The position numbers were made by a program, and so were the translations under genes. 64,000 nt of DNA from Gloeobacter morelensis MG652769 (GTDB lineage: Bacteria; Cyanobacteriota; Cyanobacteriia; Gloeobacterales; Gloeobacteraceae). Below are positions 42,296-49,138 of this stretch, piece after piece. The stretch is taken from contig NZ_CP063845.1 of NCBI RefSeq assembly GCF_021018745.1, forward strand, positions 2,976,001-3,040,000. Reading direction: 5' to 3'. A model generated the notes under the pieces. That model ran no database searches. It was not told the DNA's origin and saw nothing but the letters and a program-made list of their open reading frames with translations. How positions within the stretch are numbered: position 1 is the first letter of the stretch; every line of letters begins with the position of its first letter.

Positions 42296-43417
42296 TTATT
42301 CCAGTTGTTTGCGAAAGCGGTTGGCGCTGATGGCCAACAGCAAAAATGCAGAAGCTCCAAGCGCCAGCACGTTGGGCCAGAGCACCTCGAAGCCGACGCC
42401 CTTGAGGAGCATGCCCCGGACGATGGCGATGTAGTGGCGCAGCGGATCGGCCAGCGAGATGAACTGGAAAAATTCGGGCATCGTCTCGATAGGAGCGATC
42501 GCCCCGGATAGCTGGATCAAAGGCAGGTTGACAAAAAACGACGTGAGCACCACCTGGGTCTGGGAGCGGGCGATAGTGGCGAGCATCATGCCGATGCCCA
42601 CCCCCACGCAGATATAGAGGCTGGTGAAGACCATAAACCCCAAAAAATTGCCCCGAAAAGGCACCGCGAAGACCAATCGGGCGATCCCCAAAGCGAGCAA
42701 CGCCTCGCCCACCAGCAGTACGAATAGCGGTGCCAGTTTGGCCAGCAGAATTTCCCAGGCAGCAGCCGGGGTCATCAACAGCTGTTCGAGGGTGCCCACG
42801 TCCTTTTCGCGCACCACCGTGGCCGAGGAGACCAAAGAAGAAGTAAGAGTCAGGACAAGACCCAATACCCCCGGCACAAAAAACCAGCTGCTGCGCAGGC
42901 CCGGGTTGTACAAAATCGCCACCATCGGGTCGATGGCCTGGGGCGAAATGTCGCTCAGCGTGTAGCCGAACTGCCGGACGATCTGGCTGGCGTAGCCGCT
43001 TGCGATCCCGGCGGTGTTGGCATCGACGGCGTCGATGAGCAGCTGCACCTCGGGAGTCTGGCCCCGGGCCAGATCGCGCTGAAACTCCGGTGGAATGATC
43101 AAAGCGGCGGTGACCCGGCCGGTGCGCACCGCCTCAGCTACAGCCTGGGGACTGTGGGAAGCTGCCGCTACATCGAAGATGCCGTTGGTGGTGAAGGCGG
43201 CGACCAGTTCGCGGCTGGTGGCGGTGCCCGCGTAGTCGGCGACGGCAAGCTTCACGTGCCTGACGTCGGGACTGAGGGCAAAACCAAAAATCAACAGCTG
43301 CACCGTGGGCGGAAAGAGCAACAAAAACAGCAGCTGCCGGTTTTTGAGAATCTGGATGGTCTCTTTGCGTATCAGCGCCCACAGACGGCTCTCAAGCAGA
43401 CTTTCAAGAAATTTCAT
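42296..43417 (-). CDS. ABC-2 type permease (YbhR/YhhJ-like)
   Basis: The 373-residue permease opens ALIRKETIQILKNRQLLFLL and has six membrane helices with a large periplasmic loop after helix 1. ATVVREKDVGTLEQLLMTPA is the ABC2_membrane_3 coupling region. Its C-terminal helices include GMMLATIARSQTQVVLTSFF. It pairs with the permease 4 bp upstream, the fused ATPase and the HlyD protein as an export system. The ATG at 43417 was chosen because the frame upstream is a shadow of the neighbour gene. Confidence 0.93.
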   Translation of the reverse strand: MKFLESLLESRLWALIRKETIQILKNRQLLFLLLFPPTVQLLIFGFALSPDVRHVKLAVADYAGTATSRELVAAFTTNGIFDVAAASHSPQAVAEAVRTGRVTAALIIPPEFQRDLARGQTPEVQLLIDAVDANTAGIASGYASQIVRQFGYTLSDISPQAIDPMVAILYNPGLRSSWFFVPGVLGLVLTLTSSLVSSATVVREKDVGTLEQLLMTPAAAWEILLAKLAPLFVLLVGEALLALGIARLVFAVPFRGNFLGFMVFTSLYICVGVGIGMMLATIARSQTQVVLTSFFVNLPLIQLSGAIAPIETMPEFFQFISLADPLRHYIAIVRGMLLKGVGFEVLWPNVLALGASAFLLLAISANRFRKQLE

Positions 43418-43421
43418 AGCC

Positions 43422-44522
43422 CTACCCCGGCAGTTGCATGCGTTTGAGGTTGCGGAAACTCGCCATAAAAAACACTCCCCCCAATACCGCCAACAGCAAC
43501 GGCGCAGACCACACCCCGGCCCAGCCGGTGCCCCGCACAAAAGCGTCGCGGGTAATCTCGATAAAGTAACGCGCCGGGACGATATTGGAGACCAGCGACA
43601 GTGGAAAGGGAATGTTGCTGAGTGGATAGATAAACCCCGAAAGCAACAGCGCCGTCAGAAAACCGCTGGTGGCCACCGCCTGCACCGCGGCGCTCTGGGA
43701 GGTCGTGCGCGTGCCGATAAATAAACCAAAAGCAATGCTTGCCACCAGCATCAGTACCGTGCCCACCACCAGCGGCGTCGGATCGCCCGCCAGGCGCAGA
43801 CCGAACAGCACCGCCCCGAGGGCGAAGACCGCCACCGCCTGGGCCACCCCGACCAAAAAATACGCCAATCCCTTGCCCAGCAAAAATTCCACCGCGCTCA
43901 GGCTGGAGGCGTAGACCTGGATAATCGTGCCCTGCTCCTTCTCGCGCACCATGGCGATGGCCATCAACAGCGGCGGCCAGATGGCGAGGACTACCGCGAA
44001 CACCCCCGGCACGATGTAGAGCGCTTCTTCCCGCCCGGGGTTGAACCACAGCCGCGAACGCAAAGCAATCGCCGGGGCGGTATCCGCGCGGGTACTCAGA
44101 TAAAAATTGGTCACCTGGCGGATGCTGTTGCGGATGACCCGGGCATTGTTGCTGTCGGTGCCGTCGATGAGCGCCTGGACAGGGGCAACTTTGTTGGCTT
44201 CCAGGCGGCGGCTGAAATCCGCAGGAATAATCACGACCGCCCTTGCGACCCCCGCATCGAGTAGCGCCTCGGGGTCGCCCCGGCCGTCCCAGCGCACCGG
44301 CACGAACTGGTTGGTGGCATAGAAGCGCTGGCCGTAGGCACGGCTGGTGGGGGATCCCTCCAGATCCTGCACGGCCAGGGGAATGTTGTTGGCTTCCAGG
44401 CGGATGGCGTAGCCGAAGATGAGCAGGGTCGCCATCGGCAACAGGACCGCGAGGGCGACGGTGAGCCGGTCGCGGCGAAACTGGGTGAGTTCTTTGGCGC
44501 ACTGGGCGAAGATGCGTTTCAT
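43422..44522 (-). CDS. ABC-2 type permease (YbhS-like)
   Basis: The 366-residue permease opens AQCAKELTQFRRDRLTVALA and has a periplasmic domain (PLAVQDLEGSPTSRAYGQRF) and helices including LAIWPPLLMAIAMVREKEQG, which is the coupling segment. The C-terminal half contains FLTALLLSGFIYPLSNIPFP. It overlaps the ATPase gene by 4 bases. With the second permease it would form a heterodimeric channel. Confidence 0.93.
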   Translation of the reverse strand: MKRIFAQCAKELTQFRRDRLTVALAVLLPMATLLIFGYAIRLEANNIPLAVQDLEGSPTSRAYGQRFYATNQFVPVRWDGRGDPEALLDAGVARAVVIIPADFSRRLEANKVAPVQALIDGTDSNNARVIRNSIRQVTNFYLSTRADTAPAIALRSRLWFNPGREEALYIVPGVFAVVLAIWPPLLMAIAMVREKEQGTIIQVYASSLSAVEFLLGKGLAYFLVGVAQAVAVFALGAVLFGLRLAGDPTPLVVGTVLMLVASIAFGLFIGTRTTSQSAAVQAVATSGFLTALLLSGFIYPLSNIPFPLSLVSNIVPARYFIEITRDAFVRGTGWAGVWSAPLLLAVLGGVFFMASFRNLKRMQLPG

Positions 44523-46435
44523 GAAGTCTCCTGCCGGGCGCGCTGGACCATCGAGATAAAGGCGTCCTCCAGCGAGTAGCCGACTTGGCGGGTCGGACCG
44601 AGAGCCTGCAGTTGCTCTAGATGTGCGTCCGGTTCGTCGAGCACCACGTGCAGCCGGTCACCAAACAGCGACACCCGCCAGGATTGCTCAGCAAACAGCG
44701 CGCGCAGCGCGCGCACCGCCCGGGGCAGATCCGCGCTGATGACTTCGTACAGTTGTCCGGGCTGGCGGGCTTTGATCTCGCCCGGCGTGCCCTGGGCGAC
44801 CAATTGGCCTGCCACCATGAAGCCCAGCCGGTGGCAGTGCTCAGCCTCCTCCAGATAGTGGGTGGTGACCAGCACTGCTGTGCCCGCGCGGGCGAACATC
44901 TCGATAAGCCGCCAGAACTGCCGCCGGGCGAGCGGATCGACACCGGAGGTCGGTTCATCGAGAAAGAGCACCTCCGGCTGGTGCATCACCGAAGCGCCGA
45001 AGGCGACCCGCTGCTTCCAGCCCCCCGGCAGCTGGCCGGTGAGCAGATTTTCCTGGCCCCGCAGTCCGCAGATGTCGATGACCCAATCGATGCGCTCGCG
45101 GCGCAGACGGCGGGGCACACCGTAGACGCCGCTATAAAATTCGAGATTCTGGGCAATGCTCAGATCGTCGTAGAGCGTGAATTTCTGGCTCATATAGCCC
45201 AGGCGGCGGCGCAACTCGCTGGTGCGCAATCTGTCCTTCTCACCGGCCAGGGTGACGGTGCCCGCGCTGGCAGGCAGCAACCCGCACAGCATCTTGATGG
45301 TCGTCGTCTTGCCCGCACCGTTGGCTCCCAATAGCCCATAGATCTGGCCGGGGTGGATTTTGAGGCTGACATTGTCTACCGCCCGAAATTGCCCGAAAGT
45401 TTTGCTCAGCTGCTCAGCACCAATGGCGACCGCGTCGGCAGAAAAAGAGCGATACAGCGGCGAAGGAAAATCCAGCAAAGGCGGGTCGGAACCCTGGCGG
45501 CGCAGGCGGGTCACAAAGACGTTCTCAAGCGTCGGATCGGCGCGGCTCACCCCCGCAGAAAGCCCCCCAAGGGCCTGCGCCACCGCCCGCTCGCCCCGGG
45601 CGGGGTCCGCTACCAATACATCGAGCCGGTCGCCAAAAGTTTGTACATCTTCAATATCTTCAAGCTGGTGCAGCACCTGCTCGGCGCGGGCAAGATCGCC
45701 GGCGTGCACCTCCAACCGGGAAAGCCCCAGACCGGCGCGCAGGCGGGCGGGGGTGTCGGGCGATTCGAGTTTGCCCCCGTACATCAGGGCTACCCGGTGG
45801 CAGCGCTCGGCTTCGTCGAGGTAGGGAGTGGCGACCACCACGGTCACCTGCTCCTCAGAAAGTGCGGCAAGCACATCCCAAAATTCGCGGCGCGAGACCG
45901 GGTCCACGCCGGTGGTCGGCTCGTCGAGCAGCAAAATTTGCGGTTGGGGGATCAAAGCGGCGCACAGGGCGAGCTTTTGTTTCATACCGCCGGAAAGTTG
46001 CCCGGCCAGCCGGTCAGCAAAGCGATCGAGATCGACCAGCTTGAGATAGCGAGCGCGGCGCTCCTCAAAGAGCGCTTCGTCCACCTGCTTGAGCCCGGCG
46101 CTGTAGCGCAGGTTCTCATCGACGGACAGATCGAGATACAAAGAAAAAGGCTGGGTGATATAGCCAATTTGCAACCGCGCGTCGCGCGGCGGCCGGCCGA
46201 GCACCGAGACGGTTCCGGCGGTCGGCTCCATCACCCCCGCCAGGATCTGAAAGGTGGTCGTCTTGCCCGCCCCGTCCGGCCCAATCAGGCCAAATACCTC
46301 GCCCCGGCGCACGGCAAAATCGACGCCGTCCACCGCCGCAAGCTGCTTGTAGCGCTTCACCAGACCTTGAACGACGATGGCGGCCACCTCGGCAGAGGCC
46401 GGTGGCAACAGCCCGGCCGGTTGCAGTAAAGTCAC
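44519..46435 (-). CDS. ABC transporter ATPase with two fused nucleotide-binding domains (YbhF-like)
   Basis: The 638-residue protein carries two complete ATPase domains. The first has Walker A GPDGAGKTTTF, signature QLSGGMKQKLALCAALIPQP and Walker B ILLLDEPTTGVDP. The second has Walker A GANGAGKTTTI, signature QLPGGWKQRVAFGASVMHQP and Walker B VLFLDEPTSGVDP. In domain 1 the switch His is replaced (VATPYLDEAERC), while domain 2 keeps TTHYLEEAEHC. The same fusion is seen in E. coli YbhF. It powers the two permeases. Its start overlaps the HlyD stop (ATGA). Confidence 0.95.
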   Translation of the reverse strand: MTLLQPAGLLPPASAEVAAIVVQGLVKRYKQLAAVDGVDFAVRRGEVFGLIGPDGAGKTTTFQILAGVMEPTAGTVSVLGRPPRDARLQIGYITQPFSLYLDLSVDENLRYSAGLKQVDEALFEERRARYLKLVDLDRFADRLAGQLSGGMKQKLALCAALIPQPQILLLDEPTTGVDPVSRREFWDVLAALSEEQVTVVVATPYLDEAERCHRVALMYGGKLESPDTPARLRAGLGLSRLEVHAGDLARAEQVLHQLEDIEDVQTFGDRLDVLVADPARGERAVAQALGGLSAGVSRADPTLENVFVTRLRRQGSDPPLLDFPSPLYRSFSADAVAIGAEQLSKTFGQFRAVDNVSLKIHPGQIYGLLGANGAGKTTTIKMLCGLLPASAGTVTLAGEKDRLRTSELRRRLGYMSQKFTLYDDLSIAQNLEFYSGVYGVPRRLRRERIDWVIDICGLRGQENLLTGQLPGGWKQRVAFGASVMHQPEVLFLDEPTSGVDPLARRQFWRLIEMFARAGTAVLVTTHYLEEAEHCHRLGFMVAGQLVAQGTPGEIKARQPGQLYEVISADLPRAVRALRALFAEQSWRVSLFGDRLHVVLDEPDAHLEQLQALGPTRQVGYSLEDAFISMVQRARQETS

Positions 46436-47700
46436 GGCGTCTCCTCGGTAAGAATTTCGGCGTCGGCGGGCATGCCGGGCTTGGCAAACCCGGCCGGATC
46501 GTCGAGCAGCAACTTCACCCCAAAGACCTGGCGGACGCGCTCGTCGCGAAAGTAGATGCTCTCCGGCGTAAAGGACGCCTGGGGATCGACTGCTGCCACC
46601 CGGGCTGCCAGGGGCCGCTCGGGAGCGGAATCGAGAAACACCCGCGCCTTTTGACCGATGCGCACCCGACCCAGTTGCCCTTCCGGGATATAGCCCCGCA
46701 GATAGACCGTCCGGTAATCGAGCAGGGCGAGGACGGTCCTGCCGGCGGTGACCACCGCCCCCGGCTCGACGCTGCGGGCGGTGACCACCCCGTCGATGGG
46801 ACTTGTGATATTGAGATAACCAATCTGGGCCAACAGCTGGCGGCGGGTGGCTTCTGCGTTTTTGACCTCCTCTTGTGCCGCCAGAAGCTGTGAGCGCGCC
46901 TGGGCGAGCTGGCGGCGCACCACTTCCAGCTCAGCAGACCGTACCGCCGGGTTGAGCGCTACGGTGCGCGTCTGGGTGAGGGTGCCTTCGGCGGCAATCA
47001 CCTGCTTGCGCGCGGCGTCCACGGCCGCCTTGCGGGCGGCGAGGGTGGCCTGGGCAGCATCAAACGTGGTCTGGGCCTGGTCGAACTGTTGGATAGAGGT
47101 GGCGCCCTCGCGCACCAATTGCTCGAAGCGGGTGCGGTTGGCGGCGGCAAGCTTGAGGTCCGCCTCCGCCTGGCGCACCTGCGCTATCGCCTGGGCCAGT
47201 TGCGATTGGGCGGAGGCTACCTGGGCGGCGGCCTGCTCGATGCGGCCCCGGGCATCACCGCGCGATTGGGTAAGGCCTAGTTGCGCCTGGGTCACCTGTG
47301 CCTCCAGCACATCGATCTGCAGCCCGGCCTGGCGCTGCTGCTGGCGGGCGGCGGCGATGCGCGCCACCGCTCCTGACAGTTGGGCCTGGATTTCGGCGTC
47401 ATCGAGCTCGACGATCAGTTGCCCACGGCGCACCGCGTCCCCTTCGCGCACCGTCACCCGGTCCACCCGCCCGGCGGTCTTCGCCCCGACATCGGTCTCG
47501 TAGCCTTCTAACCGGCCGCTCAGGGCGAGCCGGTCGGCGGGCGGCCGCGAGAGGGCAACCCATAAATACACGCCGGCTCCTGCCGCCAATAGTCCCCCCC
47601 CCAGCAGCAGAACGCGCCAATTCGGCCCTTTTTTGCGGACGGCCGCGGCCGTGGCGACCGGATCAAAAGCTGTGGCCGCGGATGTCGTGGGCTGCTGCAT
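46432..47700 (-). CDS. HlyD-family periplasmic adaptor (YbhG-like)
   Basis: The 422-residue membrane-fusion protein has one N-terminal membrane helix (VLLLGGGLLAAGAGVYLWVA). A lipoyl/barrel region follows (LEGYETDVGAKTAGRVDRVT), then a long coiled-coil hairpin (QVASAQSQLAQAIAQVRQAE to VVRRQLAQARSQLLAAQEEV), and the second barrel half ITSPIDGVVTARSVEPGAVV. It bridges the inner-membrane permeases to an outer-membrane channel. The ATG at 47700 has GGAGGAAATC just upstream. It is divergent from the tandem TetR gene. Confidence 0.93.
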   Translation of the reverse strand: MQQPTTSAATAFDPVATAAAVRKKGPNWRVLLLGGGLLAAGAGVYLWVALSRPPADRLALSGRLEGYETDVGAKTAGRVDRVTVREGDAVRRGQLIVELDDAEIQAQLSGAVARIAAARQQQRQAGLQIDVLEAQVTQAQLGLTQSRGDARGRIEQAAAQVASAQSQLAQAIAQVRQAEADLKLAAANRTRFEQLVREGATSIQQFDQAQTTFDAAQATLAARKAAVDAARKQVIAAEGTLTQTRTVALNPAVRSAELEVVRRQLAQARSQLLAAQEEVKNAEATRRQLLAQIGYLNITSPIDGVVTARSVEPGAVVTAGRTVLALLDYRTVYLRGYIPEGQLGRVRIGQKARVFLDSAPERPLAARVAAVDPQASFTPESIYFRDERVRQVFGVKLLLDDPAGFAKPGMPADAEILTEETP

Positions 47701-47734
47701 GATTTCCTCCTGGCGGAGCGAGCGGTACACTGGA

Positions 47735-47756
47735 CTTAACTACACCGTTTAGTAAA
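47735..47756. promoter_or_regulatory. Putative TetR operator in the efflux/regulator intergenic region
   Basis: On the minus strand TTTACTAAACGGTGTAGTTAAG is an imperfect dyad (ACTAAAC / GTAGTT arms around GGT). It lies between hlyD (start 47700) and the TetR gene (start 47801), where a shared operator is expected. The match is weak and was found by eye. Confidence 0.35.
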
Positions 47757-47800
47757 ATCATAGGTCAGCCCGGCTTGAATGCAACCCCTGATTTTGCCGT

Positions 47801-49138
47801 ATGTCCGAACAAGCGTGTAGTACGATCGAGCCCATGCCCGATTCTCCGCCTCTGATTGCCGATCCGGCCCGCCTGCGCGGCGAACCACCCCGCTCCGGGC
47901 GGGGGCGAGCCAAGCGCGAGCAGATTTTGCGCGGGGCGCTCGCGGTCTTTGCCCGCCACGGGTTTGTCGGTACGAGCATGGACCGGGTTGCTGGTGTGGC
48001 AGGCGTTTCAAAGCCCACCCTCTACAGTCACTTTCAGAGTAAGGAGGGGTTGTTTGTCTCACTTTTTGAGTGGGCCTGCGCTGTGTATTTGCCCAGGGAG
48101 GCGCCCGAAGCGGCCGGGGGGGGCGCGGGCGGGTTGCAGGAGCATATCGAGCAGTGGCTCGCGATGGCGTTGACCCCGGAGGCGGTGTTTGTGCTGCAGA
48201 CCGCCCTAAGCGAGTCGGCCCGATTTCCGGCATTGGGGCAGTTGTACGTGCGCACGGTCCTGGTGCCTCTGAAAAACCGTTTGCACGCCTGGCTGCTCGC
48301 CCAAGGCGATCTGGACACAGCCGATGGGGAGGCAGCTGCCACCCTGCTGTGTTGTGCGCTGTTTTCCTTTGTCGGCTTTACGGAGATCTTGAAAGGGCAG
48401 CTAGTTGTGCCGGTCCAGCGCGATGCTTTTGTTGCAGGGCTGGTGGACCTGGTCACAGGGCGAGCGAGAGTAGGGGAAGCGCAAGAAACTCCGGCGCAGG
48501 CGGCGCAATGGGCCTTGCCACCGGAGGATGCCGGGGCTGACGAGCGACGCGAGCAGACGTTGCGCGCGGCGATGGCGGTGTTTTTGGAGCATGGCTACGC
48601 CGGGACGAGCATGGACATGGTCGCGAGCAGCACGGGCCTCTCCAAGCCGACTCTGTACAGCCACTTTCAGGATAAAGAAGCCCTGTTCTCGGAGCTGATT
48701 GCCCGGGTGACGATCCGCCGCTCGTTTTTGCTGTTGCAACCGGGGCTTTTTGATGAACCGACGGCGGTGGTCTTTGCCAAGCAGGCGCAGGCTCTGCTCG
48801 CCAAAATCGACGATCCGGAGTATCACGCGCTCGTCCGGTTGGTGATGGGGGAGGCGGTGCGCTTTCCGGAACTAGGCAGGCTGTACACGCGCACAGTCAT
48901 GCAGCCGGGCTTTCGGCTTTTGGGGGCTTTTTTCGGCCGCTGCCGCCCGCGGCGGTTGCCCCCGGCGACGCTGACGGTGCTCTACTGTACTCCACTGATT
49001 GGCTTTGTCCTGCTGCACGCGCTTTTGGGGGGCGGTCGGTACTTCCCGGTCGGGCGCGAGCGCTACAGCGCCTGCCTGGTGGGTCTTTTAAGCGAAAGCA
49101 GTGCGAGTGCCCGCCAGGAAGCGGGCGATGGGGCGTGA
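47801..49138 (+). CDS. Tandem TetR regulator: two full TetR units in one chain
   Basis: The 445-residue protein contains two TetR repeats. Unit 1 (about residues 38-220) has QILRGALAVFARHGFVGTSM then VSKPTLYSHFQSKEGLFVSL. Unit 2 (about 245-430) has QTLRAAMAVFLEHGYAGTSM then LSKPTLYSHFQDKEALFSEL. Each HTH is followed by a ligand domain, with LQTALSESARFPALGQLYVR paralleling LVRLVMGEAVRFPELGRLYT. TetR proteins normally dimerise from single units, so this may work as an intramolecular dimer. It is divergent from the hlyD-ATPase-permease operon and is its likely repressor. An ATG at 47834 (MPDSPPLIADPARL) is an alternative start. Confidence 0.92.
   Translation: MSEQACSTIEPMPDSPPLIADPARLRGEPPRSGRGRAKREQILRGALAVFARHGFVGTSMDRVAGVAGVSKPTLYSHFQSKEGLFVSLFEWACAVYLPREAPEAAGGGAGGLQEHIEQWLAMALTPEAVFVLQTALSESARFPALGQLYVRTVLVPLKNRLHAWLLAQGDLDTADGEAAATLLCCALFSFVGFTEILKGQLVVPVQRDAFVAGLVDLVTGRARVGEAQETPAQAAQWALPPEDAGADERREQTLRAAMAVFLEHGYAGTSMDMVASSTGLSKPTLYSHFQDKEALFSELIARVTIRRSFLLLQPGLFDEPTAVVFAKQAQALLAKIDDPEYHALVRLVMGEAVRFPELGRLYTRTVMQPGFRLLGAFFGRCRPRRLPPATLTVLYCTPLIGFVLLHALLGGGRYFPVGRERYSACLVGLLSESSASARQEAGDGA

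Follow-up and report, generated by a model that had tools for sequence, protein, structure and literature searches.

Double TFRs are proteins in which a single polypeptide contains two complete TetR units; they are known but rare, and have rarely been studied. A structurally solved example is Mce3R of Mycobacterium tuberculosis (PDB 9b7y; PMC11667970), and a figure of 204 putative double TFRs in Actinomycetes has been quoted along with it (PMC11667970). According to that report, the Mce3R chain forms an asymmetric TFR that has two HTHs and a single ligand-binding domain, its halves derive from distinct TFR subgroups, and it forms a C2 homodimer of single chains, with a non-palindromic operator of 25 bp present at two sites 53 bp apart (PMC11667970). 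Two TetR moieties have also been joined by a peptide linker in the engineered regulators sc-TetR and sc-rtTA, for which intramolecular folding was reported (PMC1797012). Our search of the literature on double TetR proteins found the Mce3R work and these engineered Tet regulators, and a tandem layout is thus of a known kind. The premise of the original prediction, that TetR regulators act as dimers of single units, is therefore outdated, since Mce3R has been published as a double TFR (PMC11667970). For exporters of the type considered below, a described case is the ybhGFSR operon of Escherichia coli, the TetR-type regulator of which is YbiH, or CecR (PMC7190983).

We analysed a window of 64,000 nucleotides from the genome of Gloeobacter morelensis MG652769, which contains a natural tandem TetR gene with the following parts.

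47801-49138, + strand: tandem TetR regulator gene, 445 aa, beginning with ATG (open reading frame list, Pfam, orthologues)
47909-48061, + strand: N-terminal HTH domain, residues 37-87, recognition helix SKPTLYSHF (TetR_N; dN 0.063 and dS 0.778 between genomes G000 and G001)
48062-48466, + strand: N-half ligand/dimerisation domain, residues 88-222, TetR_C_7-like (TetR_C_7 at residues 111-217; 41% identity between G000 and G003)
48467-48538, + strand: linker, residues 223-246, fast evolving and of low pLDDT (17% identity between G000 and G003; pLDDT about 60)
48539-48700, + strand: C-terminal HTH domain, residues 247-300, recognition helix SKPTLYSHF, with Met273 where single-unit relatives have Arg or Lys (Pfam, sequence comparison)
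48701-49102, + strand: C-half ligand/dimerisation domain, residues 301-434 (Pfam; 52% identity between G000 and G003)

The start at 47801 is putative, an alternative ATG being found at residue 12. Two stretches of the open reading frame match the Pfam family TetR_N (113.1 bits, cut-off 24), as expected of TetR-family HTHs, and two match the AefR-like TetR_C_7 (59.9 bits, cut-off 22); the latter score and the helical AlphaFold model point to C-terminal ligand/dimerisation domains of the helical TetR-family type. When the protein is split at residue 237, its halves are 35% identical over 208 columns (E 5e-31), far above chance. Genome-wide, TetR_N has 14 matches, two of which belong to this gene. 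The two complete TetR units announced by the original prediction are thus borne out by the doubled Pfam matches and by the alignment of one half against the other, and they recur in the orthologues. The HTH motifs that it singled out are present (VSKPTLYSHFQSKE, residues 69-82, and LSKPTLYSHFQDKE, residues 280-293), as is the pair of blocks in the ligand domains, but it had these in reversed order: LGQLYV (residues 145-150) lies in the first half and LGRLYT (residues 358-363) in the second.

Full-length tandem orthologues, with 95%, 79% and 54% identity, exist in the other three genomes of the window's genus, and an assembly or frameshift artefact can be ruled out because the two-unit layout is repeated in all three. 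In the genomes sampled outside the genus, the tandem gives way to single units. Of 388 genomes drawn evenly from the class, 194 had any match at E <= 1e-20; among the matches listed, those to both halves were confined to 4 genomes, all of the window's genus. These four stood at the top of the listing, which was ordered by E-value, and the strong matches listed below them cover a single unit. In 59 genomes of relatives, a match to both halves was likewise confined to the four genomes of this genus. Plasmids gave 606 matching records, and no tandem relative was found in the best 30 together with 40 rows spread over the set (the two samples overlap), all of which have the length of about one unit, some 620 bases at most. 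In the 95%-identical genome G002, the start region of the regulator is split over two contig ends (the right end of L155 and the left end of L001) that overlap by about 11 bases, equivalent to 47824-47834 of the window; a repeat or an insertion element at codons 8-12 might be the cause.

Both halves of all four orthologues have kept the recognition motif SKPTLY. Between G000 and G001, dN/dS is about 0.08 for the N-terminal HTH and about 0.09 for the C-terminal HTH, and between G000 and G003 the two HTH domains are 84% and 78% identical, respectively. Low ratios and high identity in both indicate that neither HTH is decaying; by these measures, both are under purifying selection. The two HTHs are nevertheless not equivalent in sequence. 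Arg62 of the N-terminal HTH is matched by Met273 in the C-terminal HTH of all four tandem genomes, at a position occupied by Arg or Lys in 106 of 106 single units, and Ser80 of the N-terminal HTH replaces an Asp that is found in the C-terminal HTH and in 100 of the 106 single units. Outside the HTHs, the ratio is about 0.25 in the N ligand domain and 0.23 in the linker, and about 0.12 in the C ligand domain. The faster change of the N ligand domain hints that the older pocket may have been kept by the C half.

Upstream of the regulator, on the opposite strand, lies an exporter operon.

46432-47700, - strand: HlyD/YbhG-like membrane-fusion protein, likely ATG at 47700 after AGGAGG, this start being placed by eye (Pfam, open reading frame list)
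44519-46435, - strand: ABC ATPase with two ATPase domains per chain, a YbhF-like layout (ABC_tran twice)
43422-44522, - strand: ABC-2 permease 1 (Pfam)
42296-43417, - strand: ABC-2 permease 2 (the listed open reading frame extends to 43540; the orthologues agree with a start near 43417)

By its domains and gene order, with an HlyD protein, a double ATPase and two ABC-2 permeases in one operon, this is a layout of the YbhGFSR type. The operon is divergent from the tandem gene in G000, G001 and G003; in G002 the operon and the regulator are found on two contigs, each at a contig end. The ATPase, too, is a fusion, with two ABC ATPase domains joined head-to-tail, so that regulator and ATPase are both tandem fusions at this locus. 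In other cyanobacteria, a TetR regulator of one unit is divergent from the same HlyD protein (at least 40% identity) in 43 non-identical loci. Single-unit loci with the same operon include L008, from a genome (G005) of another genus in the same family, and L072, from Gloeobacterales ES-bin-313. In L072 the partner of the operon is a SKAT-clade regulator, not one of the SKQT clade, which suggests that the regulators of this exporter operon have been exchanged.

The region between the divergent genes contains a candidate operator.

47701-47800, no strand: divergent intergenic region, in which a promoter-like match on the + strand (47731-47758) overlaps the candidate operator
47736-47756, no strand: proposed operator TTAACTACACCGTTTAGTAAA, with symmetry between its arms at 8 of 10 positions (found once in each of 4 genomes; aligned)

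The promoter-like match agrees at 9 of 12 positions, where 0.3 such matches are expected. Searched as TTAACTACAC[C/G]GTTTAGTAAA with at most three mismatches, the candidate operator is found once in each of G000, G001, G002 and G003; the reversed pattern, searched as a control, was found 0 times. All 20 arm positions are identical in the four tandem genomes, and the flanks diverge. The single-unit loci have a strong intergenic palindrome, typically ATCATACTAGACnGTCTAGTATGAT, and its core ACTAnACnGTnTAGT occurs, within one mismatch, in the intergenic stretch of 43 of the 43. The half-sites of the tandem operator have the same spacing as those of the single-unit palindromes, that is, the spacing for one dimer. 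Some of the single-unit loci (L004, L005 and L008) have two operators between regulator and HlyD, directly adjoining in L004. Control of the divergent efflux operon, as had been predicted, is supported by this quasi-palindromic site, conserved between the genes once per genome in all four.

At position -3 the tandem operator is a hybrid, with C in one arm and A in the other. Such asymmetry is not peculiar to the tandem: several single-unit sites, for example those of L002, L005 and L094, show as much of it, and in the SKAT and SKQT single-unit classes A/T or G/T pairs occur often. For this reason we set aside operator asymmetry as proof of a hetero-pseudo-dimer.

The base at -3 can be related to the recognition helix. 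We compiled 107 single-unit loci, starting from 120 distinct proteins and removing 3 re-reads of the tandem and 10 distant Gloeobacter TetRs; nearly all are cyanobacterial, and one (L030) comes from a record titled as a Tatlockia MAG. A site was accepted if it lay between -450 and +60 relative to the start used and had at most one mismatch; 91 loci have one, 15 do not, and one (L119) is without a readable helix. Control windows from the same loci contained the core in 1 of 1430 cases. Across the 91 loci, residue x of the motif SKxT tracks the base at -3 of the half-site: for Q the base is G in 72 of 82 half-sites, for A it is A in 55 of 82 and for I it is T in 7 of 8, and P goes with A or C in all 6 half-sites of three loci (C/C in L102, A/A in L104 and L109). 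When labels were shuffled over 67 non-redundant sites, the observed mutual information was reached in 0 of 2000 trials, a test uncorrected for kinship. Across AefR-like TetRs, this pairing looks like a simple specificity rule, and it yields concrete predictions of specificity. Both halves of the tandem have SKPT in all four genomes, and the C and A of its operator are the bases seen with the SKPT single units. In Tn10 TetR, the residue aligned to x is Pro39. A P39K mutant of that protein is reported not to recognise tet operators (PMC6570905).

Trees with the nearer outgroups place the N halves in one clade and the C halves in another, each with full support. In the best of these trees N and C together form one clade, with support of 76/47, 72/93 and 79/86, unstarred, and the AU test does not reject trees that join either C or N with single units (p 0.14-0.42). 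In a first tree, for which very distant outgroups were used, the N halves fell beside these outgroups, with long-branch warnings; with two of the distant outgroups, the free search missed the joint clade, and the likelihood rose when N and C were held together. The likeliest origin, which these trees favour and do not show, is an internal duplication of the operon's single-unit regulator in the stem of the genus. The SKPTL common to both halves agrees with a duplication that followed the change to SKPT, or with parallel adaptation of the two halves to the operator.

Structure prediction had been suggested as a check. With an alignment of 49 rows, AlphaFold2 gave the tandem TetR a mean pLDDT of 83.6 and a pTM of 0.83; with the four tandem rows only, the values were 74.0 and 0.72. 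Mce3R (9b7y) is the top match in Foldseek for the first model and in VIA-align for both models, and the single-chain models match it along both halves, with Z 20.0 for 346 residues and 20.6 for 353, as opposed to one half for the next chains (Z 15.5 and 14.6). The fold expected of a double TFR of the Mce3R kind is an omega-shaped pseudo-dimer made by one chain. The superpositions have an rmsd of 7.3-7.4 A and a TM score of 0.48-0.54, so that the halves of the models would be placed somewhat differently from those of Mce3R. The match of the models to Mce3R, the one-dimer spacing of the operator and the purifying selection on both HTHs all favour the intramolecular dimer of the original prediction, and stop short of proving it. 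That prediction also took the dimer to be obligate, possibly with two ligand pockets, both of which would be conjectures; Mce3R, for comparison, is described as having a single ligand-binding domain.

From two complete units conserved throughout the genus, syntenic single-unit relatives, a conserved site, and the way in which helix residue and operator base vary together in these relatives, we infer a single-chain pseudo-dimer that binds one operator and represses both the divergent exporter and itself until an inducer is bound, a reading to which we assign a probability of about 0.7. The two protomers are joined head-to-tail; the N and C units would pair within one chain like the subunits of an ordinary TetR dimer, and the two HTHs would occupy successive major grooves of the quasi-palindrome at 47736-47756. 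The bound repressor would block expression of the HlyD, double-ATPase and two-permease exporter as well as of its own gene, and would be released by a small-molecule inducer, probably a substrate of the exporter. One might speculate, more tentatively, that this is a natural single-chain TetR on its way to specialisation, in which the HTHs diverged after the duplication (Met273, Ser80) so that each reads its own half-site, ACTACAC or ACTAAAC. If so, the fused repressor would sit in one fixed orientation between the divergent promoters, an option not open to a homodimer bound to a true palindrome.

Other arrangements of the same chain have to be weighed. As in Mce3R, a pseudo-dimer chain might pair with a second chain and so bridge or loop two operators; the C2 homodimer and the two 25-bp sites 53 bp apart described for Mce3R make this conceivable (PMC11667970), but the intergenic region, and indeed the genome, offers a single site at up to three mismatches, and we consider such bridging unlikely. 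The same single site per genome weighs against two chains that pair symmetrically, N to N and C to C, as two linked TetR dimers, of which one would sit on the candidate operator and the other would be free or elsewhere. This is a layout that the authors of the Mce3R study also had to weigh (PMC11667970), and it would agree with an operator that is still quasi-palindromic (8 of 10 arm positions) and with the same SKPTLY motif in both HTHs. The half-sites, however, differ in the same way in all four genomes, and AlphaFold is fairly confident of a single-chain arrangement that resembles Mce3R across both halves, which leaves the linked dimers improbable. Least probable, in our judgement, is that one half has lost DNA reading or ligand sensing and that the other does the work, for example as a C:C dimer. 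The single-unit relatives are indeed closer to the C half, evolution is faster in the N ligand domain, and the basic residue of all 106 single units has gone from the C-terminal HTH; against this, dN/dS is similarly low in the two HTHs and SKPTLY persists in both halves of the four orthologues.

The single-chain pseudo-dimer on one operator can now be set beside the described systems. Like Mce3R, the Gloeobacter protein has two TetR units per chain and lies upstream of a transport operon, and Mce3R is the best match to its predicted structure over both halves. Mce3R, in contrast, is reported to have halves from distinct subgroups and to bind a non-palindromic site of 25 bp that occurs twice per region, whereas the Gloeobacter tandem has SKPTLY in both helices, a single quasi-palindrome and a syntenic single-unit relative. 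An orthologue of Mce3R would be expected to have a non-palindromic operator, and the site proposed here is symmetric at 8 of 10 arm positions. The engineered single-chain Tet transregulators have a head-to-tail pair of TetRs like the Gloeobacter tandem; they are man-made, whereas the tandem is natural and its halves have diverged. The CecR (YbiH)/ybhGFSR system of E. coli is similar in its TetR-type regulator with a membrane-fusion protein, an ABC ATPase and two permeases. CecR is one TetR unit. We rejected membership of the tandem in the CecR/YbiH family, the NCBIfam CecR model reaching 22.4 bits, over the HTH only, against a cut-off of 365. The single-unit AefR-like (TetR_C_7) regulators of other cyanobacteria resemble the tandem in place, operon and operator frame, but have one unit per chain, SKQT, SKIT or SKAT helices and mostly near-perfect palindromes. 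The Gloeobacter case is different in its near-identical recognition helices, its single quasi-palindromic operator, its cyanobacterial host and the existence of living single-unit relatives beside the same operon. Fused and unfused regulators face this operon from the same place, with candidate operators that can be read for both, and the step from a homodimer on a palindrome to a single chain on a hybrid operator is therefore directly testable.
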